Part shown: positions 5,730 through 45,178 of the stretch, piece after piece | How positions within the stretch are numbered: position 1 is the first letter of the stretch | Layout of the letters: each line of letters begins with the position of its first letter | NCBI GenBank assembly: GCA_937951345.1 | Contig: CALFCF010000099.1 | Coordinates: forward strand, 1-45,178 | DNA from: an uncultured Granulosicoccaceae bacterium | GTDB taxonomy: Bacteria; Pseudomonadota; Gammaproteobacteria; Granulosicoccales; Granulosicoccaceae | Length of the DNA stretch: 45,178 bases | Direction of reading: 5' to 3' | The notes under the pieces: model-generated | Database searches by the model: none | Seen by the model: the letters and a program-made list of their open reading frames with translations, nothing else | What the model was told of the DNA's origin: nothing | Made by a program: the position numbers and the translations under genes

Positions 5730-5951
5730 GTGCAAGTCTCCGTCGTTCAGGTGGAAATCAATTCCATTAATCGATGGCCGGAGATTTATCAATCACTGGT
5801 ACGCGGTGAAAAGAGGAAGGTGTGTCATTTGGAACATGGCGCCTTGGGTTTGTCTGATTCTAAAGTTTACACGGAGCTTTTTGGAGCTATCGTTTTTTCA
5901 GGAGAGGTGAAGGATGAACCACAGCAGCTCGGCCGCACAGGCAGGCGTTGA
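5730..5951 (+). CDS. Possible small protein overlapping the ATP-grasp gene
   Basis: A 73-codon frame starts at GTG 5730 and overlaps the next gene by 38 bases. The product (MQVSVVQVEINSINRWPEIY...) looks protein-like in its first 60 residues and then becomes polar (PQQLGRTGRR) inside the overlap. No family is recognised. The AAAGGA sequence upstream is 11-12 bases from the GTG, which is weak. It may be a genuine leader peptide coupled to the ATP-grasp gene, or a chance frame. Confidence 0.35.
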   Translation: MQVSVVQVEINSINRWPEIYQSLVRGEKRKVCHLEHGALGLSDSKVYTELFGAIVFSGEVKDEPQQLGRTGRR

Positions 5952-7218
5952 AATTGCGACAACTCTCGGGGAGCCGGGCACGCTTGCCTCGGCTGCCGCT
6001 ATCTTCGAGGAACTCCCGCCCGAGGCAACCTTCTACTTTGCGCAAAATCTTGCGGTTGCCCGGAAGATGAATAACCGTAAAGCAACCCAGGTGTTGAAGG
6101 ATATCGCAGCGATCAGTTGGAAAAAAAAGCGATACTTCAATCCGCATTACTATTTCAAATTTCAAATGTATGAGTTTGCTGCAGAGCGGCCACATTCCAT
6201 GTTGCTGTATGTAGATAACACTGAAACTAAAGAATGCAATCGTCAACTTAATCATGCGCTTGCACGCGAAAATTCTCTGGGTAACAAGCTCCAAATGGAA
6301 TCAATTGTGTCGAGGATGGCTCTGCGGGTGACTGAAACACAGCATGTGTTTATGAATCAACCGATGCCGTTCGAAATGTATTCCTGTGAAGTCAAAGGCG
6401 GCGTTGAATTTTTGCGTAATCGCGCCCGTTATCCGTTGTTTTGCAAGCCTAATAAGTCGTCGCAAAGTATCGGCATTTTTTTGGCTGACCAGTACAACCG
6501 TGAAAACGATACAGTTCGAATTAGAGGGACTGGAGATGTACTGGTTGAAGAGCTTGTCGATGAAATTTTTTCGCGGTTTGGTGAAAATGGCTTCATAGCA
6601 CAAAGTCGACTTATACAGCACCCGGCATTAAGTGAAATCTCTGGGGAAGGTATTGGTTGTGTGCGAGTTGTAACCGTGAAATCTGACGGCGAAATTATCC
6701 CTGTGTACGGAGTATGGAAAGTTCCTTCGGTAAATGCCATCGCGGATAATTTCTGGCGTTGCGGTAGCGTGGTGGCGGCGATTGATAATCAATCTGGCAA
6801 GATTATCAGAGCTCAGATTGATAGTGGCATCATGGGTGCCGAAGTACAGGAACATCCGGTATCTGGCGCGCCATTAACCGGATTTGAAATACCTCAATGG
6901 AATGATGTGAAATCCCTGGCTACCTCGGCTGCATCGTTGTTCCAAGGTGCAAACATTGTGGGTTGGGACATAGCAATAACAAAGGACGGGCCGTGTATTG
7001 TTGAAGGTAATACAAACCCTGATCATAGTCTTTATCAATTGGCGTTTGGTCGCGGACTTTATGACGATGATGCTGTTCGTGTCATTTCCGATATGTCGTA
7101 CGCCGCTAAGAAAGAAAAAAAGAATATTTTAAAACAAAGGAAGCAAGAAGCACGTTCAGAAAAAAGTGCTGTAGTTAAACGGATTAGTACTCAGGGAATG
7201 CGTACCCAAAAACAGTAG
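5914..7218 (+). CDS. ATP-grasp enzyme, sugar-transfer-associated type
   Basis: 434 residues resembling the 'sugar-transfer associated ATP-grasp' family. These enzymes have the ATP-grasp fold and probably ligate or phosphorylate a carboxylate substrate; no reaction is established. Visible features are the nucleotide-binding core (PLFCKPNKSSQSIGIFL, VLVEELVDEIF), the Mg-binding C-terminal segment (GWDIAITKDGPCIVEGNTNP) and a basic C-terminal tail (KKEKKNILKQRKQEARSEK). There is no signal peptide, so it should be cytosolic. ATG 5914 has a good AGGAGAGG ribosome site. It lies just ahead of a two-component pair and the Tad locus, but nothing in the sequence ties it to pilus assembly. It might act in capsule or envelope polysaccharide synthesis. 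Confidence 0.8.
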   Translation: MNHSSSAAQAGVEIATTLGEPGTLASAAAIFEELPPEATFYFAQNLAVARKMNNRKATQVLKDIAAISWKKKRYFNPHYYFKFQMYEFAAERPHSMLLYVDNTETKECNRQLNHALARENSLGNKLQMESIVSRMALRVTETQHVFMNQPMPFEMYSCEVKGGVEFLRNRARYPLFCKPNKSSQSIGIFLADQYNRENDTVRIRGTGDVLVEELVDEIFSRFGENGFIAQSRLIQHPALSEISGEGIGCVRVVTVKSDGEIIPVYGVWKVPSVNAIADNFWRCGSVVAAIDNQSGKIIRAQIDSGIMGAEVQEHPVSGAPLTGFEIPQWNDVKSLATSAASLFQGANIVGWDIAITKDGPCIVEGNTNPDHSLYQLAFGRGLYDDDAVRVISDMSYAAKKEKKNILKQRKQEARSEKSAVVKRISTQGMRTQKQ

Positions 7219-9941: not shown

Positions 9942-11003
9942 ATGTTTAGTTGTAAAAAGAAATACGTCTTATTGATCGTCGCGATCATGGTCTTGTTTAC
10001 ACAAGCGTGCGCTTTTATTGGTGCCCGTGATTCCAGTCCATTGGATCAGTTACTGAAAGGTTTAGCGGCTAATGATCCCGGTGCGCTCCACGATCTGGGA
10101 GTTCTCTATGACACCGGAGTATCTGTAGCAGAAGTACCTGAAGCCGCTTTTACGTTGTATAAAACATCGGCTGAAAAAGGTTATGAGATGTCTTACAGTA
10201 AATTGGGGTCGATGTATTTCAGCGGTAGAGGTACGGACCGGAACTATGAAGAATCGCTTGTCTGGCTGGAAAAAGCAGCAATGATTGGTCACCTGGATTC
10301 ACAGGTAAAAACCGCGCATTTATACCAGTACGGGTTGGCGACACCTGTTGATTTGGATCGAGCATTACAGTGGTACGAGCAGGCAGCAAATCAGGGGGAT
10401 GCTGTAGCTCAGTTCAATGTTGGCTATATTCTGGCGGGCAGAGATAATGAGACTAGCACCCTGAGTCAGGACGCGGTCGATTGGTACCTTCTTTCAGCAA
10501 ATCAGGGTAATCGCGATGCACAGCTTGCGTTGGGTGATATCTATCGATTGGGGAATAGAGGGCGTGTGGACAATGAGCGGGCTATTTACTGGTATCGTCG
10601 TGCTGCGCAATCCAACAGCCCGGCGGCTCAGTCACACCTTGGAGACCTCTTGTCTGATGGTACGGGTGTACAGCTAAATGCTGTTGAAGCATTTGATTGG
10701 TACCAGAAAGCCGCAGATCAGAATTATGTACATGCTCAGGCACGACTGGGTGAACTGCATTTAAATGGCGTCGGTACACCGCAGAACTATCAAAAAGCGC
10801 ACAGCTGGCTCAGTATTGCTGCTGAAAATGGTGAGCCGGCTGCGCAGTGTAATCTTGGAAACATGTATTTTCGTGGTCTTGGTGTTGCTCAGGACTTCGA
10901 GACTGCGCGTGAGTGGTTTGAGCGTTCATCTAACCGCACCCCGCGAGGTGTTGTTGCGGTTCTTGGATTAATGCGCTCTGACTGTCAGCGGCTTTACAAT
11001 TGA
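9942..11003 (+). CDS. Sel1-like repeat lipoprotein
   Basis: 353 residues. The start is ATG 9942, with GGAGACGGAG upstream; the frame stays open further back to 9912, but that stretch lacks an ATG. A signal peptide (MFSCKKKYVLLIVAIMVLFTQAC) ends in a possible lipobox at TQAC, a weak match. From residue 45 on there are about eight Sel1-type repeats of roughly 36 residues (for example AVAQFNVGYIL, AQLALGDIYRLGN, AAQCNLGNMYFRGLGV). Sel1 repeats form alpha-solenoid scaffolds for protein contacts. It follows the two-component genes by about 135 bases and precedes the pilin gene. A role as a periplasmic or outer-membrane partner of signalling or pilus assembly is inferred from position only. Confidence 0.88.
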   Translation: MFSCKKKYVLLIVAIMVLFTQACAFIGARDSSPLDQLLKGLAANDPGALHDLGVLYDTGVSVAEVPEAAFTLYKTSAEKGYEMSYSKLGSMYFSGRGTDRNYEESLVWLEKAAMIGHLDSQVKTAHLYQYGLATPVDLDRALQWYEQAANQGDAVAQFNVGYILAGRDNETSTLSQDAVDWYLLSANQGNRDAQLALGDIYRLGNRGRVDNERAIYWYRRAAQSNSPAAQSHLGDLLSDGTGVQLNAVEAFDWYQKAADQNYVHAQARLGELHLNGVGTPQNYQKAHSWLSIAAENGEPAAQCNLGNMYFRGLGVAQDFETAREWFERSSNRTPRGVVAVLGLMRSDCQRLYN

Positions 11004-25609: not shown

Positions 25610-27202
25610 TTACGGCTGCTGCCATACCCTGACGTAGTCAACGAGCGTTGCAACTTCACCTGTTTCCATCAGTAGGTGCGTATAGTCGTCAGGTGCGCCC
25701 GGCCAGCTTTCAGCCTCTGGTAACGGCCGGCCAAGAGCGAGATTCAGTACAATGTACATCTCCTCTGTAGAGATGGAAAGGTTGTCGTTAAAGTTAGGTA
25801 CCTGGAACACCTCAATACCATCAATAAACCAGATCATCCTGTCTCTTTCCCACAGAAAGCCATACGTATGGAAAGACTCAGAGAAGTTGATTTCATGGTC
25901 AGACCCTGGAGCGCACCATTCCGGCGTGTCGTTGGGAACATCCGGATTCAAGTTGCTGTTGGTGTAGTGAAGGTCAGTTCGCTCACGACGTTTTCCGTGC
26001 CAATAGGTATGGAATTGTGCATCGCGCGTATTGTAGGTTTTATTCGCTGCTGTTACATGAGTGTCGGTTATTGCACCCGTGTTATCCAACGCATAGCTTT
26101 GCCCCAGATATTCGATAATATCGGCTTCCGAGTTCTGTGTTTTTCTGAAATTCGTGTGGTTTAACCAGAACGCACTCCAGGTGCCATTACCCGGAGATAC
26201 ACGAATTCGTGCTTCAAAGTAGCCGCGAACGAAATCATGTTTCTCGCGTGTGGTTAGCACTCCGGAAACATACGGTTGCCCGGCCGTTGATGCTGTGCTT
26301 AAACCAGCGGCTTCACTGGGAATGGCACGAATAACCAAGTACCCATTATCGCCTTGTTGAATGACGTCAAACGGTGTGTGACCCCAACCACTGTGTTCAC
26401 CCAGGCTATCGATATAGTATTGGCTTTCGTTATTGATGATGGTTTCCGGACCCCAGGCGTAGGCTGAATTCCAGTCACCAGCATTTAGCTGGTCAAATTC
26501 ATCATAAAAACCCTTTTCGTACCCGTTTTTGCCCAGGTAGGAATAGATATTGTCACCTTGGCTATCTTCCCATGGCAGATCCTGCCCCAAACACGTGTTT
26601 GACAAAAAGCTCAACGGTGCTTTCAGGTCAGTGCCCGTTAAATTAACCGGGTTGAACACACCCGGGGTGCCACCGCCGTCACCTGGATCAGTGCCACCGC
26701 CATCACCCGGATCGGTTGTTCCACCGCCACCGGTGTTCTCGCAATGTGCGACAGAGTTGCTCGACGCTTGCAGCATGGTGGAATAGGTTTTTCGTCCGCG
26801 TGAGTATGCTTGAATATAGTAGTTTGATGCGACGCATCGTGTGTTTGAACCATCCGCTACATCGAGCCACTCACCGTCTTTGGCGCCGGTTTCAATACGC
26901 GTCGCATTGTTAGCCGTTGCGGGTTCGGAGGGCGAATAGTGGACGTCGTACCCGAACACGCTGAAATCCAGAGACCCCACCCAGGTCACTAAGTTGGTAT
27001 TGCCACTTGGTTCTATGGTCAGCACTGCATCTTCAGACCAAATCACTTCCGTTGGTCCCGATCCGGGTTTCATCGCAAAAGCGTACGGGGTGGAAAGAAC
27101 GATAAAAAAGCCAGTGCAAAGGCAGAGTAGCGTATGGAACAAGCTTCGTCTAATTATAAAACTGGTGTGTACAAATTCTTTAAACCGTGGTTCCCTTAAC
27201 AT
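25610..27202 (-). CDS. Secreted GH16-family glycoside hydrolase
   Basis: 530 residues. The start is the ATG at 27202, with ACGGAG 8 bases upstream; the frame extends further back without support. The long signal peptide (residues 1-43) ends STPYAFA. Residues 50-155 look like a beta-sandwich (FN3-like) module with two Cys. A Gly-rich linker at about 157-181 has DPGDGGGT repeated. The GH16 catalytic domain runs from about 225 to 530. The catalytic ExDxxE is EADIIEYLG, with E359 nucleophile, D361 and E364 acid/base, and AFWLNHT precedes it. The domain ends with DYVRVWQQ, typical for GH16. The family cleaves beta-1,3/1,4-glucans or galactans (laminarin, agar, carrageenan). The substrate cannot be read from the sequence. 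It stands alone, opposite to the Tad locus. Confidence 0.93.
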   Translation of the reverse strand: MLREPRFKEFVHTSFIIRRSLFHTLLCLCTGFFIVLSTPYAFAMKPGSGPTEVIWSEDAVLTIEPSGNTNLVTWVGSLDFSVFGYDVHYSPSEPATANNATRIETGAKDGEWLDVADGSNTRCVASNYYIQAYSRGRKTYSTMLQASSNSVAHCENTGGGGTTDPGDGGGTDPGDGGGTPGVFNPVNLTGTDLKAPLSFLSNTCLGQDLPWEDSQGDNIYSYLGKNGYEKGFYDEFDQLNAGDWNSAYAWGPETIINNESQYYIDSLGEHSGWGHTPFDVIQQGDNGYLVIRAIPSEAAGLSTASTAGQPYVSGVLTTREKHDFVRGYFEARIRVSPGNGTWSAFWLNHTNFRKTQNSEADIIEYLGQSYALDNTGAITDTHVTAANKTYNTRDAQFHTYWHGKRRERTDLHYTNSNLNPDVPNDTPEWCAPGSDHEINFSESFHTYGFLWERDRMIWFIDGIEVFQVPNFNDNLSISTEEMYIVLNLALGRPLPEAESWPGAPDDYTHLLMETGEVATLVDYVRVWQQP

Positions 27203-27226
27203 ATTAAATTCTCCGTGAATTTTTAC

Positions 27227-27261
27227 AGCTACGACGAATATATTAGCTACGACGAATATAT
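27227..27261. repeat. 18-bp tandem duplication upstream of the GH16 gene
   Basis: AGCTACGACGAATATATT at 27227-27244 is repeated at 27245-27261 (17 of 18 bases). It lies 25 bases before the start codon of the minus-strand GH16 gene, in its leader or promoter. Confidence 0.93.
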
Positions 27262-27494
27262 CCATAAAATACGACCCGACAACATAACTGGTATGTGCCA
27301 ACGATCAGCACGATTCGGATAGCGCATTCTCCCGTAACTATAACAAAACCCTACAGAACAAATCTTTGTTTTAGTTGCAACGCAGAAACTCCATGTCCTT
27401 CGGACGTGGTCACAGGACTGAAGCTTGGCCGGTCGTCGAATCAATGGTTGTTCCTATATCAGCGATCTCTATAGCCTCACCGTTAGGAATGCCA

Positions 27495-32428: not shown

Positions 32429-33346
32429 ATGTCCTATTCTGTTCAAAATTTCGGCACAATGCTGTTGGATCACGTGCGTCGCGATGCGTATCTTGAAGTT
32501 ATTCGTCGTCTCGCACCGGGTTGCCGTGTACTGGACTTGGGTGCTGGCACCGGTTTTTTTTCCATTGCTGCACTAAATGCTGGAGCTGATCATGTGGTTG
32601 CAGTGGATGTTAACTCGGCGGTTAATCAGCTGACTCGAGTGCTTAAAACCACACCATATGAAGCCAGGTGTGAGGTTCTGAACGCCGATATTCGAGAGAT
32701 CGAGTTAGAGCCGTTCGATCTGATTATCGCTGACCTGCGCGGTCCTACACCCTTCTACGGTGACGGCCTTGAGGTAATGTCGTATGCCCGTCAAAACCTA
32801 TTGACAGAGAAGGGAAAACTAATTCCGGAAGAAGATCAGCTAATGGCATGCGTTGTTTCACTGCCTAATTGGTACCGGGATGTAAGTGAACCCTGGTCGC
32901 TGCCCGGTGCTGATTGGTCGAGTTATCGGGACTCTGTTTTATCCACACCAACCAGTCTTTCAACTGTTGATAAAAGTACGATGTTCTCTAAACCTGTGTG
33001 TTGGCACCGGATTGATTACTCCGATGCTGGCCACATAGAAAAACGTAAGTTCGGCTCTCAGAATACGATAACAATTTCGCAATCCGGGCTCGTTCACGGT
33101 GTGTTATGTTGGTTTGAAACCGTGTTGACAGAGGATATCGGTTATCGTACCGAACCGTCCAATCACAAGCCCACATACGGTCGATTACTGCTCCCGTTTC
33201 TAACGCCTGTAGCCGTGTCAGCAGGCCAGGAATGTGATTTGACCGTACAGTGCTATCGATTGAAGAAAAACTGGACCTGGGATTGGGGTATTCATGGTGA
33301 TGCCCTAATGGCTAGAAATAGCTCTGTGGGTGTGGGATTTTTGTAA
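32429..33346 (+). CDS. PRMT-like SAM-dependent methyltransferase
   Basis: 305 residues. The class I methyltransferase fold is clear: motif I VLDLGAGTGFFSIAALNAGA (residues 34-53), the acidic end of beta-2 (VVAVDVN, D60), post-I CEVLNADIREIE, and FDLIIADLRGPTPFYGDGLE. The following LLTEKGKLIPEEDQLM resembles protein arginine methyltransferases, which have a beta-barrel after this point. The usual double-E loop (SEWMG) is replaced by ADLRG, so the first catalytic Glu is missing and target choice may differ. It starts 55 bases after the membrane gene and ends about 125 bases before the lasso promoter. Substrate unknown; peptide methylation is possible. Confidence 0.8.
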   Translation: MSYSVQNFGTMLLDHVRRDAYLEVIRRLAPGCRVLDLGAGTGFFSIAALNAGADHVVAVDVNSAVNQLTRVLKTTPYEARCEVLNADIREIELEPFDLIIADLRGPTPFYGDGLEVMSYARQNLLTEKGKLIPEEDQLMACVVSLPNWYRDVSEPWSLPGADWSSYRDSVLSTPTSLSTVDKSTMFSKPVCWHRIDYSDAGHIEKRKFGSQNTITISQSGLVHGVLCWFETVLTEDIGYRTEPSNHKPTYGRLLLPFLTPVAVSAGQECDLTVQCYRLKKNWTWDWGIHGDALMARNSSVGVGFL

Positions 33347-33586: not shown

Positions 33587-33862
33587 ATGGAAAATACAAT
33601 ATATACACAGCCCGACAATGTGATATTAAGGGATGTAGGCGACGAAACGTTGCTGCTTAATATAGACACTGAGCAATATTTTGGACTGAATTCCGTCGGC
33701 ACGGAAATGTACCGACGACTTGTATCTGGTGAAACATTAGCGTCCACACTGGAAGCTCTCGCCAGTATCTATTCTGTCTCTATGGAAGTACTCGAAGAAG
33801 ACTGTGCCGAATTGGTAGGAAATTTACTGAATAATCAGTTAATCGCAGTCCGCGAAGCGTGA
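33587..33862 (+). CDS. PqqD-like leader-peptide-binding protein (lasso B1)
   Basis: 91 residues from ATG 33587, with GTGGAG 9-10 bases upstream; the frame also opens back to 33554 without support. Winged-helix PqqD/RRE fold: VILRDVGDETLLLNIDTEQY, FGLNSVGTEMYRRLVSGETL, then ALASIYSVSMEVLEEDCAEL and a final LLNNQLIAV. This is the standard PqqD-type pattern ('lnt..y..LN..G...w..l'). In lasso clusters the separate B1 protein binds the precursor leader (through Tyr, Pro and Leu of the YxxPxL motif) and hands it to peptidase B2. It overlaps the B2 gene by 4 bases. Its split from B2 is typical of paeninodin-like and actinobacterial-type clusters, less so of classical proteobacterial ones. Confidence 0.93.
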   Translation: MENTIYTQPDNVILRDVGDETLLLNIDTEQYFGLNSVGTEMYRRLVSGETLASTLEALASIYSVSMEVLEEDCAELVGNLLNNQLIAVREA

Positions 33863-34356
33863 CAATTTCTTATCCGCGAATTTCTCGAGCATTAAAACTG
33901 ACGGGTAAGTCGCCGGCAGTTGCGGTAATGGGCGTCGTTTGTATTCCACTATTGCACTTTGCCGTAAAAGCAAAGTTACTGAAATCAAGACCAACTGCTT
34001 TGTGGCTTGCCAGCAAAGCAGGTGCTGAGTATCGCCGGCCGGCCGGTACCGAACCGCAAGACATTGAGCGCGCATTTGATTATGCCGGTGCACTGCATTT
34101 AGGCGTTCGTTTATGGCGCTTAAACGCGAATTCGTGCATAGCGCGTTCCATCATTCTATGGGTAATTTGCGTTCGACAATCTATTCCAGCAAAAGTTATT
34201 GTCGGTGCACCAACCGGAACTACAAAAGATTTTCACGCCTGGGTTGAAGTGCACGACACGCCTGTTAACGACAGCATGGATGTGCGCAGTCGTTACGGGG
34301 CGTTCGATTCCGCTTATTTAGAATTCCCTTTATCTGTCGCTGGTGCTGACTGTTGA
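33859..34356 (+). CDS. Lasso peptide B2 leader peptidase (transglutaminase-like)
   Basis: 165 residues from GTG 33859, overlapping the B1 stop (GTGA). A transglutaminase-like cysteine peptidase that removes the leader after the residue behind the conserved Thr. The catalytic Cys is C93 in LNANSCIARSIILW and the His is H126 in TKDFHAWVEVHD, followed by an Asp candidate in PVND (D138). An N-terminal helical part (AVMGVVCIPLLHFAVKAKLL) resembles the membrane-like or substrate-gripping region seen in B2 proteins. The length is normal for B2 (about 140-170). The four-base overlaps on both sides mean B1, B2 and the kinase are co-translated. Confidence 0.92.
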   Translation: MTISYPRISRALKLTGKSPAVAVMGVVCIPLLHFAVKAKLLKSRPTALWLASKAGAEYRRPAGTEPQDIERAFDYAGALHLGVRLWRLNANSCIARSIILWVICVRQSIPAKVIVGAPTGTTKDFHAWVEVHDTPVNDSMDVRSRYGAFDSAYLEFPLSVAGADC

Positions 34357-35258
34357 ACAACCAACTCGTCAGGGTCTACGGATCTGTTGCCAGTATACCG
34401 CGTGAAATTTGTCTGCCGCTTGAAGTAATTTCCGAGTGTGTCCTACCTGACGTTATCGCATCAATTGGTGCGCTGGATAACCCGGAAACTGCATTCGAGC
34501 TGGATGCTGCAGTGGATCTACATATTTCCGGAAATTGTGTATCCGTGTACCCCAAAATGGAGCTTGGGCCCAGAGGCTATGAGCATTACATAATCGATCA
34601 TGCCGTACCCCACGCGCTTACTCACATAGGGAAATATGTTTTGCATGCTGCAGCATTGTCCAAAGGTGGTAAAGGTGTCCTGTTGTTGGGTGCGTCCGGA
34701 GCAGGGAAGTCATCGCTGTGTGCGCATCTTATTAAAAACGGCTGGCAGGCTCTGGGCGACGATGCCGTTGGGCTGGCGGTTGAGGGTAATACCTGCGTTA
34801 TGCACCCCGCCTATCCGGGCCTTCGACTGCATCCGGGCGATACGACGACGGAACTCCTGGCTGCAAGCACGGAAAGCGATGGAAACACTGAGGCTGTGGA
34901 TGGAAATCTATTCGCCGGCGTTGCCGGGCTTGTTGCTGAATATGGCTACAAGACTCGCGTAAATATTACCGAAACGTCGTTTCAATCAAGCTCGCACGCA
35001 GCCCAGGTTGTGATTTTGCTCGGCCAGGATGAGAATTTTCGGGCAACTCGGATTGGTAGTGTCGAACTATGCGCTGCACTAACCGGTTCGATGTTTTTTC
35101 CTGCGGCTGAAAACATAAAAGCCATTGAGCGACTGCAACTGGTCAGCTCCTTTGCAACCAAGTTGTCAGGCCACAAAATTGATTACCCAAGAACCCTTCA
35201 AGGCCTCGATGAGATGAGCCAGTGGCTTGAAACCAACATCAGCAGCTCAGGGGTCTAA
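34353..35258 (+). CDS. HPr-kinase-like protein of the lasso locus
   Basis: 301 residues from TTG 34353, overlapping the B2 stop. The P-loop VLLLGASGAGKSSLCAHLIK (GASGAGKS at 113-120) and the WQALGDDAVG segment (DD at about 136-137) are the HPr kinase/phosphorylase features. The N-terminal 100 residues are variable. The same protein family in paeninodin-like lasso clusters is known to phosphorylate the C-terminal Ser of the precursor. Here neither precursor ends in Ser, so the target is unclear. A role on an internal Ser (S5 in both cores) or a different phosphorylated group is inference. Cytosolic. Confidence 0.88.
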   Translation: MNNQLVRVYGSVASIPREICLPLEVISECVLPDVIASIGALDNPETAFELDAAVDLHISGNCVSVYPKMELGPRGYEHYIIDHAVPHALTHIGKYVLHAAALSKGGKGVLLLGASGAGKSSLCAHLIKNGWQALGDDAVGLAVEGNTCVMHPAYPGLRLHPGDTTTELLAASTESDGNTEAVDGNLFAGVAGLVAEYGYKTRVNITETSFQSSSHAAQVVILLGQDENFRATRIGSVELCAALTGSMFFPAAENIKAIERLQLVSSFATKLSGHKIDYPRTLQGLDEMSQWLETNISSSGV

Positions 35259-35282: not shown

Positions 35283-37028
35283 ATGGCTGCATTTTCACTA
35301 TTGTACAAATATGATGGCGCACCCGCGGACGATCACGAACGCGCCTGTATGCTGCGTGCGTTTAAATATCACCACGGCGAGGTTGAAGTACTATCCCCGA
35401 TACCCGGTCTGACCTTATTTTTGCATTCGTGTGCGTGGGAACCCAAGCCTCATTTACTGGAGCGTGGTGATTTAAACGGTGTGGCCGTTGGCAGGGGCAA
35501 ATTGCGGCAGGTAAGCAGTAAAAATGGCGCGCCTGAAGTCGAGGATATTTTACTGGAAGGCACAGCGACCGGGGTCATCTGGTCGCGTGAGTCGCTCGCC
35601 TTGCTCACTGACCGGTGTTCGCAAAGAGCTGTTTGGTACCTTGATGGGGGCAGATTTTTACTCGCCGGTAGTGAACCGCGATTAATACTTGGGCATCCCG
35701 CGGTAAGTGCTGAACCCGATGAACAAACTCTTGCCGAGCGCGTTTTAAACAAACCTTCAACACCGTGCCGCTCTATTTACAAAAATATTCATAGCTTGCC
35801 GCCCGGTGGTCGCCTTGTTTCAAAGGCAGGGGTAAATAAACGCGATGCCTGGCATGAGTTTCAATATAAGGTCGATAAAAGAAAATCGTTTACAGATTGG
35901 TGTGAAGAAATTGAACACTGTACGAGCGACATTATGCAAGAGCATATTCGTCTGCTGGACGGTGATAATTTCTCACTGTCACTCAGTGGCGGGCTCGACT
36001 CCTCTGTTCTAGCCGGTTTCATCAAGTTTTACGCTGCGGATAAAAATTGTCTGGCGAGTACGTTTGGTTATCCGGGGATGCCTTGCGATGAATCTCATTT
36101 TCAGGATGCAGTACTAGAGGGTGGCTCATTCCAACGACAGGTATTCGATCATCGTTTGCTGGACGTAGACGCCGACATTCTCGAACCGCTGAAACGCTCC
36201 CGTGTACCCCCGTACCGACCGGAGCCATTGGCAAGAGATACCTATGATTGGAGCGCAAAAAACGGTTTCCACTATCGGTTTATGGGAATGGGTGGTGACG
36301 AGTTCTTCGCTCCACACGGTGAGACATTACTTGACCTACTGTTTTCCGGTCAGTGGGGGCGAATAGGTACATCCATTAAACAGCAGGGTGTAGCGCCAGC
36401 GTTAAAACGATGTATTGAGCACGTTCCTTTACCGCTTGTTCAGTTACGGCGTCGCTCGAATTTGCCAGGCTGGATAGGGCCTCGACTCAGGCATGATTTT
36501 AAAGCACATCGCCTGTTTGATTTTCAACGCAGGCTACCCGGGTATAAAGCAAAAGCAGACGAACGGGCATACCAGTTGTTTAATACAGGTTCGTTGGCCA
36601 TTAATCTGGAATCTTTTGAATTTCTCTCGGCTGATCTGCAACAAGAGTTTATAAATCCATTTTATGATTATCGGTTGGCAGAAAAGCTCTTGTGTGTACC
36701 GGAATACCGCCTTGTTTCTGCCAGTGATATCCGGCATCTACAGCGCACCAGCTACGCCGGTTTTCTGCCCGATTTAGTCAGATCGAGACGGGGCAAAGTG
36801 CACTTTGATTACCCGTTGGTTGCCCACCTCAAGGAACCCTGGTTCGAGTCATTTTTTCAGTCTACCCGGCTGCAGAGAGAAGGCTGGATCGATGGCGATA
36901 GCATTCGGTCTATCTTTACCAGTGTGACAAGGCATCCAGGATGGCCCGAATCAGTCGACACGCTTCCGCCGCATGCGACTATACTCTGGAATCTGATTGG
37001 TTTAGAGCTGTGGCTTAATTCACTTTAA
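35283..37028 (+). CDS. Lasso peptide macrolactam synthetase (asparagine-synthetase-like, C protein)
   Basis: 581 residues starting at ATG 35283, 24 bases after the kinase stop. ATP-dependent enzyme that activates the Asp or Glu side chain of the core and joins it to the Gly1 amino group. The PP-loop ATP site is SLSLSGGLDSSVLAGF (about 231-246). The N-terminal glutaminase-like half lacks the Cys at position 2 (MAAFSL), so it cannot use glutamine, as expected for lasso cyclases. The synthetase half has FMGMGGDEFFAPHGET and the usual helical C-terminus. The C-terminal codons and stop lie inside a 10-bp tandem repeat. It is followed by the first precursor gene, about 160 bases on. Confidence 0.95.
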   Translation: MAAFSLLYKYDGAPADDHERACMLRAFKYHHGEVEVLSPIPGLTLFLHSCAWEPKPHLLERGDLNGVAVGRGKLRQVSSKNGAPEVEDILLEGTATGVIWSRESLALLTDRCSQRAVWYLDGGRFLLAGSEPRLILGHPAVSAEPDEQTLAERVLNKPSTPCRSIYKNIHSLPPGGRLVSKAGVNKRDAWHEFQYKVDKRKSFTDWCEEIEHCTSDIMQEHIRLLDGDNFSLSLSGGLDSSVLAGFIKFYAADKNCLASTFGYPGMPCDESHFQDAVLEGGSFQRQVFDHRLLDVDADILEPLKRSRVPPYRPEPLARDTYDWSAKNGFHYRFMGMGGDEFFAPHGETLLDLLFSGQWGRIGTSIKQQGVAPALKRCIEHVPLPLVQLRRRSNLPGWIGPRLRHDFKAHRLFDFQRRLPGYKAKADERAYQLFNTGSLAINLESFEFLSADLQQEFINPFYDYRLAEKLLCVPEYRLVSASDIRHLQRTSYAGFLPDLVRSRRGKVHFDYPLVAHLKEPWFESFFQSTRLQREGWIDGDSIRSIFTSVTRHPGWPESVDTLPPHATILWNLIGLELWLNSL

Positions 37029-37060
37029 TTCACTTTAATTCACTTTAATTCACTTTAATT
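37021..37060. repeat. 10-bp tandem repeat, four copies, spanning the stop codon
   Basis: CACTTTAATT is repeated four times without gaps (37021-37060), and a partial copy (TTAATT) precedes it. The C-protein stop TAA (37026-37028) is inside the first copy, so the last residues L-N-S-L derive from the repeat. Each further unit also contains TAA in one frame. Confidence 0.97.
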
Positions 37061-37095
37061 CCCTGTTAGCTAGCATTCTTGTTTGCATTATATGA

Positions 37096-37187: not shown

Positions 37188-37382
37188 ATGCAACAACCAG
37201 TTACTACTAAGATTTCAGGCCGCGAATACAGCAAGCCTTTGCTAGCCGCCCACGGCAGTTTTGCCGAACTTACTCAGGGAATGGCCGGGTCGCAAAATGA
37301 TGGACAAGGCGGTGGCGCAGGTATGGCGTGTGATGTTCTGGTTCCTAATGATTCTGGTCCTGTAAACGACGGTTGCGGATAA
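37188..37382 (+). CDS. Lasso peptide precursor A1 (64 residues)
   Basis: ATG 37188 follows AAAAGGAG closely; a TTG six bases earlier is less likely. The leader, residues 1-30, contains the lasso signature REYSKPLLAAHGSFAELTQ: Tyr14, Pro17, Leu19, Gly23 and Thr29. Thr29 is at -2 and the core starts with Gly31. The core is 34 residues: ring segment GMAGSQND with Gly1 and Asp8, then a Gly-rich hinge (GQGGGAGMAC), then a tail with Pro and Asp and two Cys at core positions 18 and 33, which could form a disulfide. It lies just downstream of the cyclase gene in the same direction. Predicted product: an 8-residue Gly1-Asp8 lasso. Alternative ring acids are too far along (Asp19) for a normal lasso. 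Confidence 0.88.
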   Translation: MQQPVTTKISGREYSKPLLAAHGSFAELTQGMAGSQNDGQGGGAGMACDVLVPNDSGPVNDGCG

Positions 37383-37690: not shown

Positions 37691-39388
37691 TTACAGTTGA
37701 ATTGTTCTGTCTGCCAGACCCAGACTGGCTGGCCGGTGTGTTATGAGGAGAACAGTTGCTCGTTGCAACAAGTCGGTACATGCTTCGACGTACCGTTTTT
37801 CGGATTCCGGGTCAAACATGGAGGTTGCTTCATCGAGGATTAAAATGCTCGGATTTTTAAGCACTGCCCTAGCCAACGCAATTTTTTGTCGCTGGCCTCC
37901 GGAGAGCATCACTCCTTGATCACCAATCAACGTATCCAGCCCGTCATTCAGTTCAGCTATCAGGTTTTCAGCTCCAATGCTGTTCAGTATTGATTCCAGG
38001 CGCGCATCATCAATTGGCTCTCTCTCGGCTAGAGTTCCGTATTGCGAGTCTTCCAGTATCAGGTTGTTTCTGACAGTGTTATTGAATAGAAGTGCATCCT
38101 GTGCGACATAGCCAATAGACCGCCTCAGGGTTGAAAGCGCGATGTTCTCGATAGGCTGGTTGTCGACTCTGATTTGACCACTTGTCACCGGCATTAATCC
38201 CAGGCAAAGCTTGGCTATTGTGCTTTTTCCTGATCCGTTTCTGCCAACAATGGCAATGGTCTCACCTGAATTAATAGTGAGATTAAATTCGCTTAAAACC
38301 GGGTGCGCAGCGTCGTAGGCAAAATCGACATTGTGGAATTCAATACGGGAGAGGCGGCTGCTTGCCCGGGAGCTATCGACTTCCGATACCGCATTTTTAT
38401 AGTTGGTCTGATTATCAGCGGGTTGCGCAAAGTAATGAGCTTCGTTCTTTTCGTCAAAAAATTCTTCCAGTCTTTCCGCTGCTGATAATGCATTTTGCAT
38501 ACGGCCAAACAATGAAGCCATTGTGCTCATTGGGCTAACCATAAGCAGGCCGTATAACAGCAGGCTGGTGAGTTCCGCAATACTCATAAGGTTTCGGGAT
38601 AATGTACTGGAAAGCACCCACAAAGTACCTATAACAACAATACTGCCTAAGAGCTTTATCGCCGGCTGAATACGTAACTGTCGTGCATTAAACTGTTGCC
38701 GTACTCGAATGTATTCGTCGGTTAATTGATTCAGATTGTTTTGGTTTTTTTGTTCGAGAACGAAGGTTTTGATCGTGGGTAGTAATGCAATCGATTCAGT
38801 CAGATAGCCTGAGATTCTGGCATATTTTTCTATCATTTTTTTTGATAGTCCACGAACACTTCTTCCTAGAAATTTTGTTAAAAAGACGAATGTTGTACAA
38901 AGTAAAACTGCAGCTACCCCAATGCGTGGACTAATAGTGAAAATTAGTACGAGTGCACCAATGAATGTAACGGTCTGCGGTAGGATGGCCGTTAACGCAT
39001 TGGTGGTGAATTGCGTGATTATTTGACAATCATTCTGGAAGAGCGCCAGAATTTCTCCTTTCTTACGCGATTCGCTATAGCTTAATGGCAAATTAAGCAG
39101 GGATTTGTATGTACGCGTTAATAGCCCGGTCCACATGAGGTCGGATGTTTTTATCAGCCAAAGCTGGGATACATACGTGACCACAGCTTGAACAACCAGT
39201 ATCGCCATCCAGAATGGAAACAACTGGTTTATAGTTATTGCTGCGTTCTCAGCATCCAGCAGATTGGCGGCCAGTTGCCCGGCTAACCAGGGGTTGATTA
39301 AAAATACGACGCTGGCCACGCATGACAGTAGTGTTGCGACAACGAGCTGAGGTATATAAGCCTGTGCTGAGTTGAGGATTAGATTCAA
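37691..39388 (-). CDS. ABC exporter, probably for the lasso peptides
   Basis: 565 residues. Half-transporter of MsbA/McjD type: six membrane segments in residues 1-300 (for example LVVATLLSCVASVVFLINPW, ILVVQAVVTYVSQLWL, FIGALVLIFTISP), then an ATPase domain with Walker A GRNGSGKST (382-390), signature LSGGQ (495-499) and Walker B ILILDE (514-519), with an H-loop ITHRP. The start is uncertain: TTG 39388 without a visible ribosome site is the best in-frame choice because no ATG lies nearby upstream. It is divergent from the cupin gene and convergent with precursor A1. Half-transporters of this kind export lasso peptides and give immunity. Confidence 0.93.
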   Translation of the reverse strand: MNLILNSAQAYIPQLVVATLLSCVASVVFLINPWLAGQLAANLLDAENAAITINQLFPFWMAILVVQAVVTYVSQLWLIKTSDLMWTGLLTRTYKSLLNLPLSYSESRKKGEILALFQNDCQIITQFTTNALTAILPQTVTFIGALVLIFTISPRIGVAAVLLCTTFVFLTKFLGRSVRGLSKKMIEKYARISGYLTESIALLPTIKTFVLEQKNQNNLNQLTDEYIRVRQQFNARQLRIQPAIKLLGSIVVIGTLWVLSSTLSRNLMSIAELTSLLLYGLLMVSPMSTMASLFGRMQNALSAAERLEEFFDEKNEAHYFAQPADNQTNYKNAVSEVDSSRASSRLSRIEFHNVDFAYDAAHPVLSEFNLTINSGETIAIVGRNGSGKSTIAKLCLGLMPVTSGQIRVDNQPIENIALSTLRRSIGYVAQDALLFNNTVRNNLILEDSQYGTLAEREPIDDARLESILNSIGAENLIAELNDGLDTLIGDQGVMLSGGQRQKIALARAVLKNPSILILDEATSMFDPESEKRYVEACTDLLQRATVLLITHRPASLGLADRTIQL

Positions 39389-39645: not shown

Positions 39646-40941
39646 ATGGATTTGGAAGCTATAAGCAAACTCGGTGACAGCCTTCGCAAGGAATACCAGG
39701 CATTGCACTCGAATGAAGAGCATTTCACCGCACTTGCTGTAGATCATCTGCAAAAGTTGGATTTCGATTTTGCCTGGGCGCCAGAGTTGTTAGCGTCTGT
39801 CAGTCTGGCAAATCCAAGTGTACCCAGCCATCGTTTCAGCGACTGGCCTATCCAGTTGTATCGAAGTCAGGAATTTTACATTGAACTGCTCGTTTGGACC
39901 AATGCTACTGCTGCGATACACCAGCACTCATTCAGTGGGGCATTCAAGGTCGTTCAGGGTTCAAGTTTTCATGCTTTGTATGACTTTAATGCCTCTGAAG
40001 AGGTAAATGCAGATTTAGTGTTAGGCGATGTGACTTGCCGCGAATTCGAAAAGCTAAGCGTCGGTGACGTTCGCCCGATAAAGGCTGGGTCAGCGATGAC
40101 ACACAGTCTTTATCATCTGGATCACCCCAGTGCCACACTAGTTGTTCGAACCAACGGTCACCCGAAATTCGCACCCCAGTTTACGCTTTATAAAAATCAC
40201 ATCGCTGTCAATCAGTTAGACCTTGCGCGAAAAGGTCGTGTTAATTATTGCGGTTGGGTACTCGACACACTGATGAGTGTTGATGAGCAGAAGACGTATG
40301 ATGTGCTCGGCAATCTATTTCAGGAAATATCCGTATCTGAGGCTGTGGTTGTGATTCTTGCCCATCGAAAAAAGCTCTTTAGGGAAGATATAGTCAAGGA
40401 GCCCGACTTTCTGGTAGACAACGGAATAGCGCAACCCGTTGCAGAGGCAGTTGTAAATGCACTGGAAGAGCTGAACGGCATCGACGAGCTGACAGAAATG
40501 CGCAACCTAACAAGCGATCCTGAGCTTCGGTATTTTTTAGCGCTGCTAATCAATGTACCCGATCAGCATTCTATACTTGCACAATTGCAAACCGCCTATC
40601 CGGATGATGATCCACTGGATACGTTTGCCGGTTTGCTTGTTCGCGTTTGCGATGAACGCACTGAGTTTGCGAAACGCATGCTGTCAAATGCAGCTAGTAT
40701 GATGGGTGGAACTAGACAGCTGGATTTTTCTAATTCGTTGTTTTCGTGTCTACCCGAAGGGATTGAAAAACGTGACCGTAAGTCTTTTTTCCGGCACGCG
40801 CTGGGAGTAAACGCGAATGTTAAGGATAACGTAAGCCAGGCCGGTAATGAAAACTGCAAAGATAGTAATGCTGCGCATCGATGGCGGGAAAGTATTGACC
40901 AATTCGCCAGCCTACACCAGCTAAAAAGGATCGTTAATTAA
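39646..40941 (+). CDS. Cysteine-dioxygenase-like cupin with a long C-terminal domain
   Basis: 431 residues from ATG 39646; only weak upstream purines. Residues of about 70-175 show a cupin: TAAIHQHSFSGAFKVVQGSS matches the first motif (HxH...K(V/L)xxG) of the cysteine dioxygenase type, and AMTHSLYHLDHPSATLVVRT the second (His plus beta strand). The two His of IHQH and a third from GSAMTH could bind iron. The usual Glu of motif 1 is missing, as in cysteine dioxygenases. Residues of about 190-431 are a helical domain without recognised family. The product could oxidise a Cys of the precursor (A1 has two) or a small molecule; inference from context only. Confidence 0.72.
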   Translation: MDLEAISKLGDSLRKEYQALHSNEEHFTALAVDHLQKLDFDFAWAPELLASVSLANPSVPSHRFSDWPIQLYRSQEFYIELLVWTNATAAIHQHSFSGAFKVVQGSSFHALYDFNASEEVNADLVLGDVTCREFEKLSVGDVRPIKAGSAMTHSLYHLDHPSATLVVRTNGHPKFAPQFTLYKNHIAVNQLDLARKGRVNYCGWVLDTLMSVDEQKTYDVLGNLFQEISVSEAVVVILAHRKKLFREDIVKEPDFLVDNGIAQPVAEAVVNALEELNGIDELTEMRNLTSDPELRYFLALLINVPDQHSILAQLQTAYPDDDPLDTFAGLLVRVCDERTEFAKRMLSNAASMMGGTRQLDFSNSLFSCLPEGIEKRDRKSFFRHALGVNANVKDNVSQAGNENCKDSNAAHRWRESIDQFASLHQLKRIVN

Positions 40942-41281: not shown

Positions 41282-41440
41282 TTAATTCCCTCTAGTATCT
41301 GGTTGTCGGGTGTTTGACCCTGTGTCTGGTCGTGAACCACCATCGCCTTTAGTTAGATCTTCGAAGTTTCCAAGATTACTAAGTTGGGGTTTTTCGTATT
41401 TGCGAGGTTTTGACAACTGTTTTTCGTTTTCGTCTTTCAT
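41282..41440 (-). CDS. Lasso peptide precursor A2 (52 residues)
   Basis: Minus-strand frame from ATG 41440 to TAA 41282-41284. The leader contains RKYEKPQLSNLGNFEDLTK, aligning position by position with precursor A1: Tyr, Lys-Pro, Leu, Gly, Phe, Leu-Thr conserved. Thr30 is at -2 and Gly32 begins the core. The core is 21 residues: ring segment GDGGSRPD with Gly1 and Asp8, then a hydrophilic tail (TGSNTRQPDTRGN) with no Cys or aromatic residue. The ribosome site is weak (GAGAG about 12 bases upstream). A 12-bp terminator follows. The leader match, terminator and location between two lasso-type genes make this a confident call despite its size. Confidence 0.88.
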   Translation of the reverse strand: MKDENEKQLSKPRKYEKPQLSNLGNFEDLTKGDGGSRPDTGSNTRQPDTRGN

Positions 41441-41499: not shown

Positions 41500-41680
41500 A
41501 CTCATCTGCTTACGTTCGCAGACGGTTTCACAAACAGCGAAAAGATATTAGATTACCGCCTCGCGCACCGTCAAGCGCTTGTCACCGGTGTTTAGGCGGA
41601 ACAAGTGTAAACTTTACAAAAAGAGTAGCTGTGTTGTTCGTCACCGACACTTGCTGATAAAGAAAAGGGAAACTGTAAAT

Positions 41681-42868
41681 TTGCGTAAACATTCATCCGG
41701 ATTTGTTGCTTCTTTTGGAAATTTGGAAGTGGACATCTGTGTGCAGGCTGTGCAGGAATTTCTCTACCGTGACGCCGAGCAGCCAGTGCAGTTGGCCGAG
41801 CACATCAACATTGACCGGTTAGCGGAACTCTCATCAGAGACGCTTGTTGATGTTGCCGGAAAGTTTGGCACTGCACCTATCACTTATGCTTTTTTACAGA
41901 AGCTTGTCACTCAAGGTGTGGTGACGCAGCAAGGTGAATTGAGAACTGCGCTGCAGAAATTGGCTCAAAGCACCATGGCGAATACGGTAATCGCCGAGCG
42001 CGCGCGTGAGCAACTCCGTGTAATCGGTGAAAAGTTAGCTGAAACCGGCATAGAGGTGTGCCTGCTCAAAGGTGCGTGCAGACTATTTGATGACCTTTGG
42101 CCGAATGCCTCGTATCGTCCGCTTGGCGATCTGGATATCCTGGTGCCTGCACAACGTGCTGACGAAGCGCAACAAGTGCTCTTGAATGCCGGATACAGTT
42201 TTTTGGGGGACAACAACCCCTTCTATAACTTGCACCATCATTTGCAGCCACTTGCTCTGCAAATTGGGCAAACTCCGTTTAGCCTGATTGTGGAAGTCCA
42301 CCGTGCGCTGGGTCAACCAAGAATTGCCCGTTTGCTGCCGGCAGGAGATGTGTTGTCGCGCGCCATCGCATTGGACAAAATCCAAAATGGATTAACGTCA
42401 CCTGCATTAGATGACCAGCTCAGGATTGCGTCACTGCATGCCAGCCATGAACTGGTTAATTCGCACCGAAATGTCATTCGGTTGCGTGATTACGTTGAGC
42501 TTGAGCTCCTTGCCCGCAAGGTGGGCCAAGGCAATGCAACTAAAGGCTATTCGATGCTCGGATCTAAGCCGGATAGCTTGTTAGGCGTATTATCGGAGCT
42601 ACAATTGTTACTGGGCCTTACCCCGTGTTACCCGGTATCGACTATACAGAACAGACGACCCCGTAATTGGATAGCGAGGAAATGGCATCAATTTATTGCC
42701 AGACAGGTTTTTGAGCGGGAGCTATCGTTGGCACCCACTGAGCGCTATGCGCTGCCGGGTTCTTTGTTAAAAAAGTCGCTGAAATTCCGGTTTGCCCTAA
42801 GCTTGGAGCTTCGCAAAATTGGTATAAAGGTTCTACCCGGTGCTACCGGAAGTGCAGTCGATCAATAG
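41681..42868 (+). CDS. Nucleotidyltransferase-family protein (lasso-associated)
   Basis: 395 residues from TTG 41681, which has AAGGGA 10 bases upstream; the frame is open back to TTG 41579 but that part is basic and unlike the rest. The NTP_transf_5-type signature is visible: EVCLLKGACRLFDDLW, then SYRPLGDLDILVPAQRADEA with the metal-binding GD-x-D motif, and VEVHRALGQP as the third acidic/His strand. Members of this family are found in paeninodin-like lasso clusters next to the HPr-kinase-like protein and may attach a nucleotide to a phosphate or hydroxyl of the peptide; the activity is not established. The C-terminal half is helical and basic. Divergent from A2. Confidence 0.85.
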   Translation: MRKHSSGFVASFGNLEVDICVQAVQEFLYRDAEQPVQLAEHINIDRLAELSSETLVDVAGKFGTAPITYAFLQKLVTQGVVTQQGELRTALQKLAQSTMANTVIAERAREQLRVIGEKLAETGIEVCLLKGACRLFDDLWPNASYRPLGDLDILVPAQRADEAQQVLLNAGYSFLGDNNPFYNLHHHLQPLALQIGQTPFSLIVEVHRALGQPRIARLLPAGDVLSRAIALDKIQNGLTSPALDDQLRIASLHASHELVNSHRNVIRLRDYVELELLARKVGQGNATKGYSMLGSKPDSLLGVLSELQLLLGLTPCYPVSTIQNRRPRNWIARKWHQFIARQVFERELSLAPTERYALPGSLLKKSLKFRFALSLELRKIGIKVLPGATGSAVDQ

Positions 42869-43129: not shown

Positions 43130-45178
43130 ATGATTGGGCTAGCAAAAAAAATTAGCGGTGGGTTGGGTTTATCGAGTTTATTGCTAGCCACAATGAGCTA
43201 TTTGCCAACTGCATTGCTTGCGAACCAGGACCTCAGTGATTTCTCGCTGGTCTTTTCAGATGAGTTCAACGGTAATTCGCTGGATGCCACTAAATGGAAC
43301 ACCGGTTATTTGTGGGGCCCCTATCTGCCCATTAATAACGAAGAACAGCTTTATGTTGACGAGCTGGGTATTAACGCTGATGCGATGCAGGGCAATGGGG
43401 GTAACACACCGAGCCCGTTTGAATTTACAGGAAGCTCGCTGAAAATCATCGCGACACCTGTACAGGACCAAAGCCAGCTGCCGCCACGGCCACCTGAAAA
43501 TGACCCCATCTGGCTGAACTACCCGGAGTACCGCTATAACGGTGATGATCCGAATGATCCGGACGACAGTTTCTACGACCCTGATAATGTTAATTACCTG
43601 TCTGGCCTGATCACATCGTACGATGCGTTCCGGTTCAGCCACGGGTATGCCGAAGCACGCGTTAAATTACCGGACGGCCAAGGCCTGTGGCCGGCTTTCT
43701 GGTTACTGACCAGTTTTTACGTTGAAGATGTGCCCGAGATAGACATTATGGAATTTCTCGGTCATGACTCAGACACGGTTTATCACACCTATCACTACTT
43801 CGAACCACAAAATAACTATAACCTGATTTCGACGCCTTCCTTCACAACTACCGGGAGCGATTTCACGGGGCCTTGGTATACCTTCGCAGTATCCTGGGAC
43901 CCGAAGGAAATTGTCTGGTATGTCAATGGCGAAGAAACACGCCGGGTGACTTATCAGGAGTACGAAATCCCGAACCAGGCGATGTACGTACTGGCCAATC
44001 TGGCCGTTGGTGGTAACTGGCCGGGCTCCCCGGATACGACCACGCCATTTCCGGCTGAATTTGAGCTGGACTACATCAGGGTCTACCAGAAGAACACGCC
44101 AGCAACCATTACGCAGGCGCAGCTGGACAGCCAGTATCACTTGATGTTTGAAGACAACTTCAATGGCAACGCGCTTGATACCTCAAAATGGAATACTCAC
44201 CACTTATGGGGTCCATACTGGCAAATTAACAACGAGCAGCAATTCTACCCGGATATAGGCGATACCCATGCGGGTTACGTGAATAATCCGCTGCAGGTCG
44301 ACAACGGTACGCTAAAAATAATTGCTGAACCTGTCGCGTCTTCTGACCTGCCCGCTCAGCCGGGCATTGCCAGCAGTGCTTTCCTCGAACACCCCGAATG
44401 GCGCAACAGCCAGGCCTACAACAACCCGGAATACACCAATCCGACTAATGATCCGACCCTGGCTGTCGCGCCGTTTCTGCCGGAGTACACCAGCGGTATT
44501 ATCACCAGCTACGACAGTTTTAAATTTACCCACGGTTACGCAGAGATACGCGCGAAACTCCCCGCAGGTGATGGTCTATGGCCAGCGTTCTGGCTGTTGA
44601 ATGGCTATTACGTCGACCAACAACCCGAAATTGATGTAATTGAGCTGCGCGGTGAAAACCCGAATGAGCTGGTGCATTCCTATCACCTGTCGCCCAAACA
44701 CGGTGGCCCCCCTTCCTACAGCTGGACGACAACATCAAATACCACAAACGGATTTGCGGATACGTTCCATACCTATGGCGTCGCCTGGGAACCCGGAAAA
44801 ATCGACTGGTACGTCGACGGTGTTAAACAACACACACACACCGGCCCGAGCGTATCGAGCCAGAATATGTATGCGATTCTAAACTTGGCCGTCGGGGGCA
44901 ACTTCCCGTTTAGCTCGCCTGTTGAAAGTGAATTTCCTTATCAGTTCGAAATTGATTATGTGCGGGTTTGGCAGCCTAAGGTCACGTTTCTTCCTGAACT
45001 AGAAGTCCCTAACGATACACTGTCGGAAATGTTGACCGAAGTAGTAACGGGTTTTGAATCTTATGCGAGTGCGAATGGTACGTATCAGGTAAGCGGAGCA
45101 GGTGCAGCGAATGCGGGTTTTGGGTGGTTTCATTATGAGAATGGAGCTCTGTATGCGCAATCGTTGGCAAACGCATTG
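43130..45178 (+). CDS. Secreted protein with two tandem GH16 domains (3' end outside window)
   Basis: 683 codons are open to the window edge from ATG 43130. The signal peptide (MIGLAKKISGGLGLSSLLLA...) ends near PTALLA. The first GH16 domain, about residues 36-320, has VFSDEFNGNSLDATKWNT, the AFWLL signature and catalytic EIDIMEFLG (E203, D205, E208), ending FELDYIRVYQ. The second, about 335-620, repeats the same order: MFEDNFNGNALDTSKWNT, AFWLL, EIDVIELRG (E500, D502, E505), ending FEIDYVRVWQ. Both keep all catalytic residues. After 625 a new region begins (TFLPELEVPNDTLSEML). The domains are clearly related but divergent. The family acts on beta-glucans or algal galactans; the exact substrate cannot be read. 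Confidence 0.94.
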   Translation, partial: MIGLAKKISGGLGLSSLLLATMSYLPTALLANQDLSDFSLVFSDEFNGNSLDATKWNTGYLWGPYLPINNEEQLYVDELGINADAMQGNGGNTPSPFEFTGSSLKIIATPVQDQSQLPPRPPENDPIWLNYPEYRYNGDDPNDPDDSFYDPDNVNYLSGLITSYDAFRFSHGYAEARVKLPDGQGLWPAFWLLTSFYVEDVPEIDIMEFLGHDSDTVYHTYHYFEPQNNYNLISTPSFTTTGSDFTGPWYTFAVSWDPKEIVWYVNGEETRRVTYQEYEIPNQAMYVLANLAVGGNWPGSPDTTTPFPAEFELDYIRVYQKNTPATITQAQLDSQYHLMFEDNFNGNALDTSKWNTHHLWGPYWQINNEQQFYPDIGDTHAGYVNNPLQVDNGTLKIIAEPVASSDLPAQPGIASSAFLEHPEWRNSQAYNNPEYTNPTNDPTLAVAPFLPEYTSGIITSYDSFKFTHGYAEIRAKLPAGDGLWPAFWLLNGYYVDQQPEIDVIELRGENPNELVHSYHLSPKHGGPPSYSWTTTSNTTNGFADTFHTYGVAWEPGKIDWYVDGVKQHTHTGPSVSSQNMYAILNLAVGGNFPFSSPVESEFPYQFEIDYVRVWQPKVTFLPELEVPNDTLSEMLTEVVTGFESYASANGTYQVSGAGAANAGFGWFHYENGALYAQSLANAL

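Follow-up and report, generated by a model that had tools for sequence, protein, structure and literature searches.

The kinases of lasso peptide clusters target, according to reviews, a C-terminal Ser of their precursor. In the stretch of DNA analysed here ("the window", 45,178 nt of contig CALFCF010000099.1, from an uncultured Granulosicoccaceae bacterium), a lasso cluster with an HPr-kinase-like protein (K) contains two precursors, A1 and A2, which end in Gly (DGCG) and Asn (TRGN), respectively. The question is therefore what this kinase acts on. An earlier reading of the same DNA, made from the sequence only, had noted both C-termini correctly and proposed that K acts at a new position, acts on a different substrate or is non-catalytic. 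Of these options the first is now the best supported, both by the position of K in the kinase tree, apart from the kinases of C-terminal-Ser clusters, and by a ring Ser that is invariant within each lineage. Our preferred explanation, held with moderate confidence, is that K is catalytically active, depends on the leader, belongs to the ring-Ser type of kinase and, working like BsfK (the kinase of Bradymonas sediminis FA350), phosphorylates Ser5 of A1 and A2.

An HPr-kinase-like protein in a lasso operon

The gene for K (34353..35258, + strand; 301 aa) is annotated as a putative HPr-kinase-like lasso precursor kinase, on account of its Pfam/NCBIfam matches and its operon position. Its start codon, a TTG at 34353, overlaps the stop codon of B2 (CTGTTGAAC) and C begins 24 nt downstream of the stop codon of K (TAA, 35256-35258), which places K within a run B1-B2-K-C. 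In this run, B1 (33587..33862, +) is a PqqD/RRE protein (PqqD E 3e-11; lasso_PqqD), presumed to carry the leader to K, B2 and C; B2 (33859..34356, +) is the leader peptidase (NF033537, 40.5 bits, above cut-off); and C (35283..37028, +) is the asparagine-synthase-like lasso cyclase. C was identified by Pfam/NCBIfam, as was the ABC exporter D, encoded on the minus strand (37691..39388, -). Short tandem repeats of ttaattcact lie over and beyond the stop codon of C (37010-37062).

The coordinates, strand, frame and HPr-kinase-like nature first proposed for K hold. Pfam Hpr_kinase_C matches it with E = 2.9e-7 (30.6 bits, just missing the cut-off of 33.3) and NCBIfam HprK_rel_A with E = 1e-10 (41 bits, far below the cut-off of 200); since these matches lie below the cut-offs of the named families, K is HPr-kinase-like and outside any of them. 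HprK-related kinase A (TIGR04352) and HPr kinase/phosphorylase do share a related P-loop kinase region with K, which stays far below the cut-offs of both (32 bits against 240 for the full-length HPr kinase/phosphorylase family), and the HprK-rel-A proteins form a separate group (100/100) in the kinase tree described below. The HPrK signature motif, present in the HprK of another locus (L018), is absent from K. With the family cut-offs unreached and this signature missing, we rejected the identification of K as the HPr kinase of the cell.

A kinase that phosphorylates some other protein, or acts as a regulator, with the precursors not being its substrates, is quite improbable. Elsewhere, kinases of the HPr type act on other substrates, and a search of the assembly for an HPr kinase above the Pfam cut-off found none, but K overlaps B2 in its operon, lacks the HPrK signature, and belongs to a kind of kinase that recurs in lasso loci; for a different substrate as such we found no positive evidence.

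The catalytic motif of K is complete. It comprises His98 (codon 34644..34646, +; spaced as H148 of BsfK), the P-loop G113ASGAGK119S120 (34689..34712, +), which is conserved in relatives, and Asp136-Asp137 (34758..34763, +), assigned by motif comparison as the Mg/catalytic pair, so that the His, the P-loop Lys and Ser and the Asp-Asp pair of lasso precursor kinases are all present. The alignment of the P-loop and Asp pair recommended in the sequence-only reading finds every required residue intact: H98-G113-G116-G118-K119-S120-D136-D137 of K corresponds, with identical residues and spacing, to H148-G163-G166-G168-K169-S170-D186-D187 of BsfK. The motif is also retained in the kinase of the nearest relative (L031, CALGLE010000024.1, a genome of the same family Granulosicoccaceae), which is 37% identical to K. 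The low family scores could suggest that K has lost its kinase activity and persists as a chaperone or scaffold; with eight of eight motif residues at exact spacing and conserved in so divergent a relative, we regard a non-catalytic K as very unlikely. The AlphaFold model of K (from a 2-row alignment; pLDDT 38.7) was too poor for structural support.

Precursors, tail serines and known lasso kinases

The A1 precursor (37188..37382, +) has a 30-aa leader and the core GMAGSQNDGQGGGAGMACDVLVPNDSGPVNDGCG, with a ribosome-binding site (GAAAAGGAG) upstream, and the A2 precursor (41282..41440, -) a 31-aa leader and the core GDGGSRPDTGSNTRQPDTRGN; both exceed the cut-off of NCBIfam lasso_leader_L3 (26 and 28.5 bits, respectively). 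The cores were predicted by applying the T(-2)x(-1)|G1 rule to the sequence, and begin with GMAGSQND (A1) and GDGGSRPD (A2). Both precursors thus combine a recognisable leader with an acid at core position 7-9 (Asp8 in each) and, together with an RRE protein, a B2 peptidase and an Asn-synthase-like cyclase, make up a lasso cluster. As the sequence-only reading had also stated, Ser5 of each core falls within the predicted 8-residue Gly1-Asp8 ring, and each tail contains a Ser as well (S26 in A1, S11 in A2). No lasso leader besides those of A1 and A2 exceeds the cut-off in the assembly (95.5% complete), so the scan revealed no hidden precursor ending in Ser. The A1 core is unusually long (34 aa), with Cys at positions 18 and 33 that could form a tail disulfide.

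The C-terminal Ser which is the conserved target of the paeninodin-type kinases PadeK, ThcoK and SyanK (HPr-kinase-like proteins of lasso clusters which, like K, carry the His-Lys-Asp-Asp motif) is hence absent from both precursors. The premise that lasso kinases act on such a residue, from which the earlier reading started, cannot apply to A1 and A2, and it was also incomplete: BsfK, reported in 2023, phosphorylates Ser3 in the core of a precursor whose last residue is Asp, requires the leader-bearing precursor and is strongly helped by B1 (PMC10368454). The bsf cluster (A, B1, B2, C, D, K and N, with a Gly1-Asp8 ring in the product; PMC10368454) resembles that of the window in the HPr-kinase-like protein with identical motif spacing, in the split B1/B2, in the presence of C, D and N, and in precursors with a YxxPxL leader, a Gly1-Asp8 ring, no C-terminal Ser and a Ser available in the ring. 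The two differ in the position of this ring Ser (3 in bsf; 5, as a proposed phosphosite, in the window), in leader position -2 (Ile in bsf, Thr in the window) and in the second precursor and the extra PRMT-like and unassigned genes of the window. One ring-modifying lasso kinase having been published, K looks like another member of a known, little-studied kind.

Lineage-specific ring serines and the kinase tree

Lasso B2 proteins were searched for in 369 gammaproteobacterial genomes, 398 genomes from across the phylum and 385 of a second class (apparently Alphaproteobacteria); for most matches the surrounding sequence, up to 16 kb, was retrieved. In this survey, kinases of K's kind are frequent and repeatedly present in the lasso loci of Pseudomonadota. 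Scanning genome contigs with the K alignment matched only the Granulosicoccaceae relative already known, and a plasmid search with B2 gave no match. Precursors ending in Ser occur in six loci of one genus (L126, L131, L134, L136, L138 and L142; cores such as GGGGSTAIDASFPAHTPIGDLTFS), in L106 (...QLTFS) and on a Sulfitobacter plasmid (...EVTLS); in L150 and L211 the precursors end in Ser-Asn. Other ends are found in L031 (GPGGSSND...PGGQ), L147 (GFAGSIPD...PFQG), L133 (GSAGPNGD...MAMP), L137 (GSVGGTND...STMM), L209 (GSSGDLGD...RGPK), L210 (GSGTTDMD...SFMG) and an Antarctobacter plasmid (...NRNRC), and in L208 the core, which begins with GSLGDVGD, is fused to a longer domain. The genomes of L133, L137 and L208-L210 belong to one alphaproteobacterial family (f213), which we guess to be sphingomonad-like.

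The kinase tree of Pseudomonadota lasso loci covered 33 kinases, BsfK and the Firmicute enzymes not among them, and was then enlarged by three more f213 kinases. The kinases of C-terminal-Ser clusters, with that of L150, group in a single clade (98/95; 92/93 after the enlargement). The window's K joins the kinase of L031 (100/98), then that of Antarctobacter (97/96) and then those of L133 and L137 (82/90; 89/88 for this clade in the enlarged tree). The clade includes the kinases beside A1/A2 and in L031, L185, L133, L137, L208, L209 and L210, and no predicted core in these eight loci ends in Ser (for L208, assuming that the fused domain is cleaved off). A topology that places the window and L031 kinases within the C-terminal-Ser clade, represented by proteobacterial members only, is rejected (AU p = 0.02), so K does not group with the kinases of paeninodin-type clusters. 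The kinase of L147 is a long branch that groups insecurely with the window's clade (membership neither supported nor rejected, p-AU 0.45), and that of L211 falls inside it with weak support.

In the cores of A1, A2, L031 and L147, ring positions G1, G4, S5 and D8 are invariant, Ser5 being the only such residue besides G1, G4 and D8; none of the four ends in Ser, as in the BsfK substrate, and in L147 Ser5 is the only Ser of the core. In the five f213 cores the invariant positions are G1, S2 and D8, with Ser2 as the sole invariant free ring residue. When the free ring residues were shuffled within each core and the chance of a shared Ser was counted, the permutation gave P = 0.009 for Ser5 (0.056 without L147) and P = 0.0015 for Ser2, values which are overstated, the cores being related and the samples small, and which we take as indications only. 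We did not count the presence of a ring Ser by itself as evidence, given that 4 of 7 rough kinase-less controls (a small set, for whose members a kinase elsewhere in the genome is possible) have one too; positional invariance alone was kept. The candidate core of L211 (GNGGAGFDFASEASN) has no ring Ser. Its leader is atypical, but no other observation speaks so clearly against a simple ring-Ser rule. Overall, these sequences suggest that each lineage conserves one ring Ser, at position 2, 3 (Bradymonadales, published) or 5, and we propose the Ser5 codons of A1 (37290..37292, +) and A2 (41333..41335, -) as encoding the phosphosites, from sequence and conservation.

The same comparisons bear on whether K might instead be a variant of the C-terminal-Ser kinases with its target in the tail, either a Ser or Thr there (S26 in A1; S11 or a Thr in A2) or a Ser made C-terminal by trimming. 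Both cores have a tail Ser, and the Ser-Asn ends in the related L150 and L211 may mean that one extra residue is tolerated or trimmed; nevertheless, the position of the tail Ser varies among A1, A2 and L031, the L147 core has none, and K lies outside the C-terminal-Ser clade, all of which makes tail phosphorylation rather doubtful. If ring-Ser phosphorylation is true, lasso kinases would comprise two functional groups (C-terminal-Ser and ring-Ser), with those of the second picking different ring positions by lineage, a specificity rule that could be tested through kinase/precursor swaps and that would open a route to designed lasso peptides that carry phosphate, and perhaps sugar, on their ring.

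The survey also returned loci of unusual architecture. In L208, a single ORF (5928-6284, +) encodes both the lasso precursor (leader ...YVRPALTVFGSVRNLTG, core GSLGDVGDGGVQSMVM) and, fused to it, a Peptidase_S74 endosialidase-chaperone domain (PF13884, E 4e-8), whose self-cleavage before SDPRAKENI would yield a core of normal length; no paper on such a precursor fusion was found in the literature searched. The L080 cluster, in which K, N, C, B1 and D are present, encodes a YxxPxL-T precursor (10070-10240) whose core (GSLVLSVVTPLTATLADVAGG) lacks an acid at positions 7-9, so that the usual lasso ring seems impossible. In L147, a gene for a PEP-CTERM-like secreted protein (10213-10869, recognised by eye) immediately precedes the precursor. 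Clusters with B2 and a kinase in L104, L184, L211, L216 and others carry WxxPxL-type leaders and odd cores, which suggests that B2/kinase RiPPs form a wider group in Pseudomonadota.

Proposed pathway and accessory genes

In the proposed mechanism, B1 would bind the leader through its RRE and present linear A1 or A2 to K, which would transfer phosphate to Ser5, inside the future ring, before the leader is removed. B2 would then take off the leader, C would close the ring from Gly1 to Asp8 around the tail to give a ring-phosphorylated lasso peptide, and D would export the product.

Afterwards, a sugar or nucleotide may be added to the phosphate by N (41672..42868, +), an NTP_transf_5 nucleotidyltransferase-like protein (PF14907, E 7e-23). 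This role is suggested by analogy with the literature: a predicted nucleotidyltransferase accompanies the kinase in both the pseudomycoidin and bsf clusters, and in pseudomycoidin (Bacillus pseudomycoides) the enzyme whose gene neighbours the kinase gene attaches hexoses to the phosphate. The window shares with that cluster the joint presence of the two genes; in pseudomycoidin, a Firmicute product, phosphate and hexoses are carried by the C-terminal Ser.

A further gene, upstream of B1 (32429..33346, +), encodes a PRMT-like methyltransferase, recognised by Pfam, whose homology to PRMTs extends across most of the protein (PRMT1 E 1e-15). In the segment that we take to be the PRMT double-Glu loop, ADLRGPTPFYGDGL, the canonical glutamates are missing, so the enzyme may perhaps not target arginine. 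In four alphaproteobacterial lasso clusters (L133, 10752-11876; L137, 10423-11550; L208, near 6337; L210, near 8318) a homologue sits immediately between A and K, an arrangement that suggests a linked tailoring step. These PRMT-like proteins recur in lasso clusters with the window's kinase clade, their double-Glu loop apparently replaced, and the copies of L133 and L137 are extended at the C-terminus by a segment judged PqqD-like by eye, for which Pfam gave no confirmation. PRMT matches on Pantoea and Tropicibacter plasmids lay outside lasso loci and were set aside. A product that combines a phosphorylated Ser5, a ring phosphosugar or phosphonucleotide made by N and a methylation by the PRMT-like protein, as one of a series of multiply decorated lasso peptides with the phosphosite at 2, 3 or 5 by lineage, is a tentative extension that we consider possible, if unlikely in full.

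The cluster also encodes protein X (431 aa, 39646-40941), for which no Pfam, NCBIfam or convincing PDB relative was found and for which a search of 47 further genomes from the family gave no homologue; its AlphaFold model (pLDDT 38.0) was too poor to use. The presence of this unassigned protein and of the PRMT-like one, together with a dehydroalanine-containing lasso peptide that appears among the references of a 2026 review, would leave room for a ring Ser phosphate that is an intermediate only, then eliminated to dehydroalanine or otherwise consumed. Pfam and NCBIfam recognised no lyase-like gene among the ten cluster proteins scanned, however, and of all the explanations weighed here we find elimination the least probable. 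The whole lasso region is flanked by two secreted glycoside-hydrolase-like genes, GH16-looking by eye (25610-27301 and 43130-45178).
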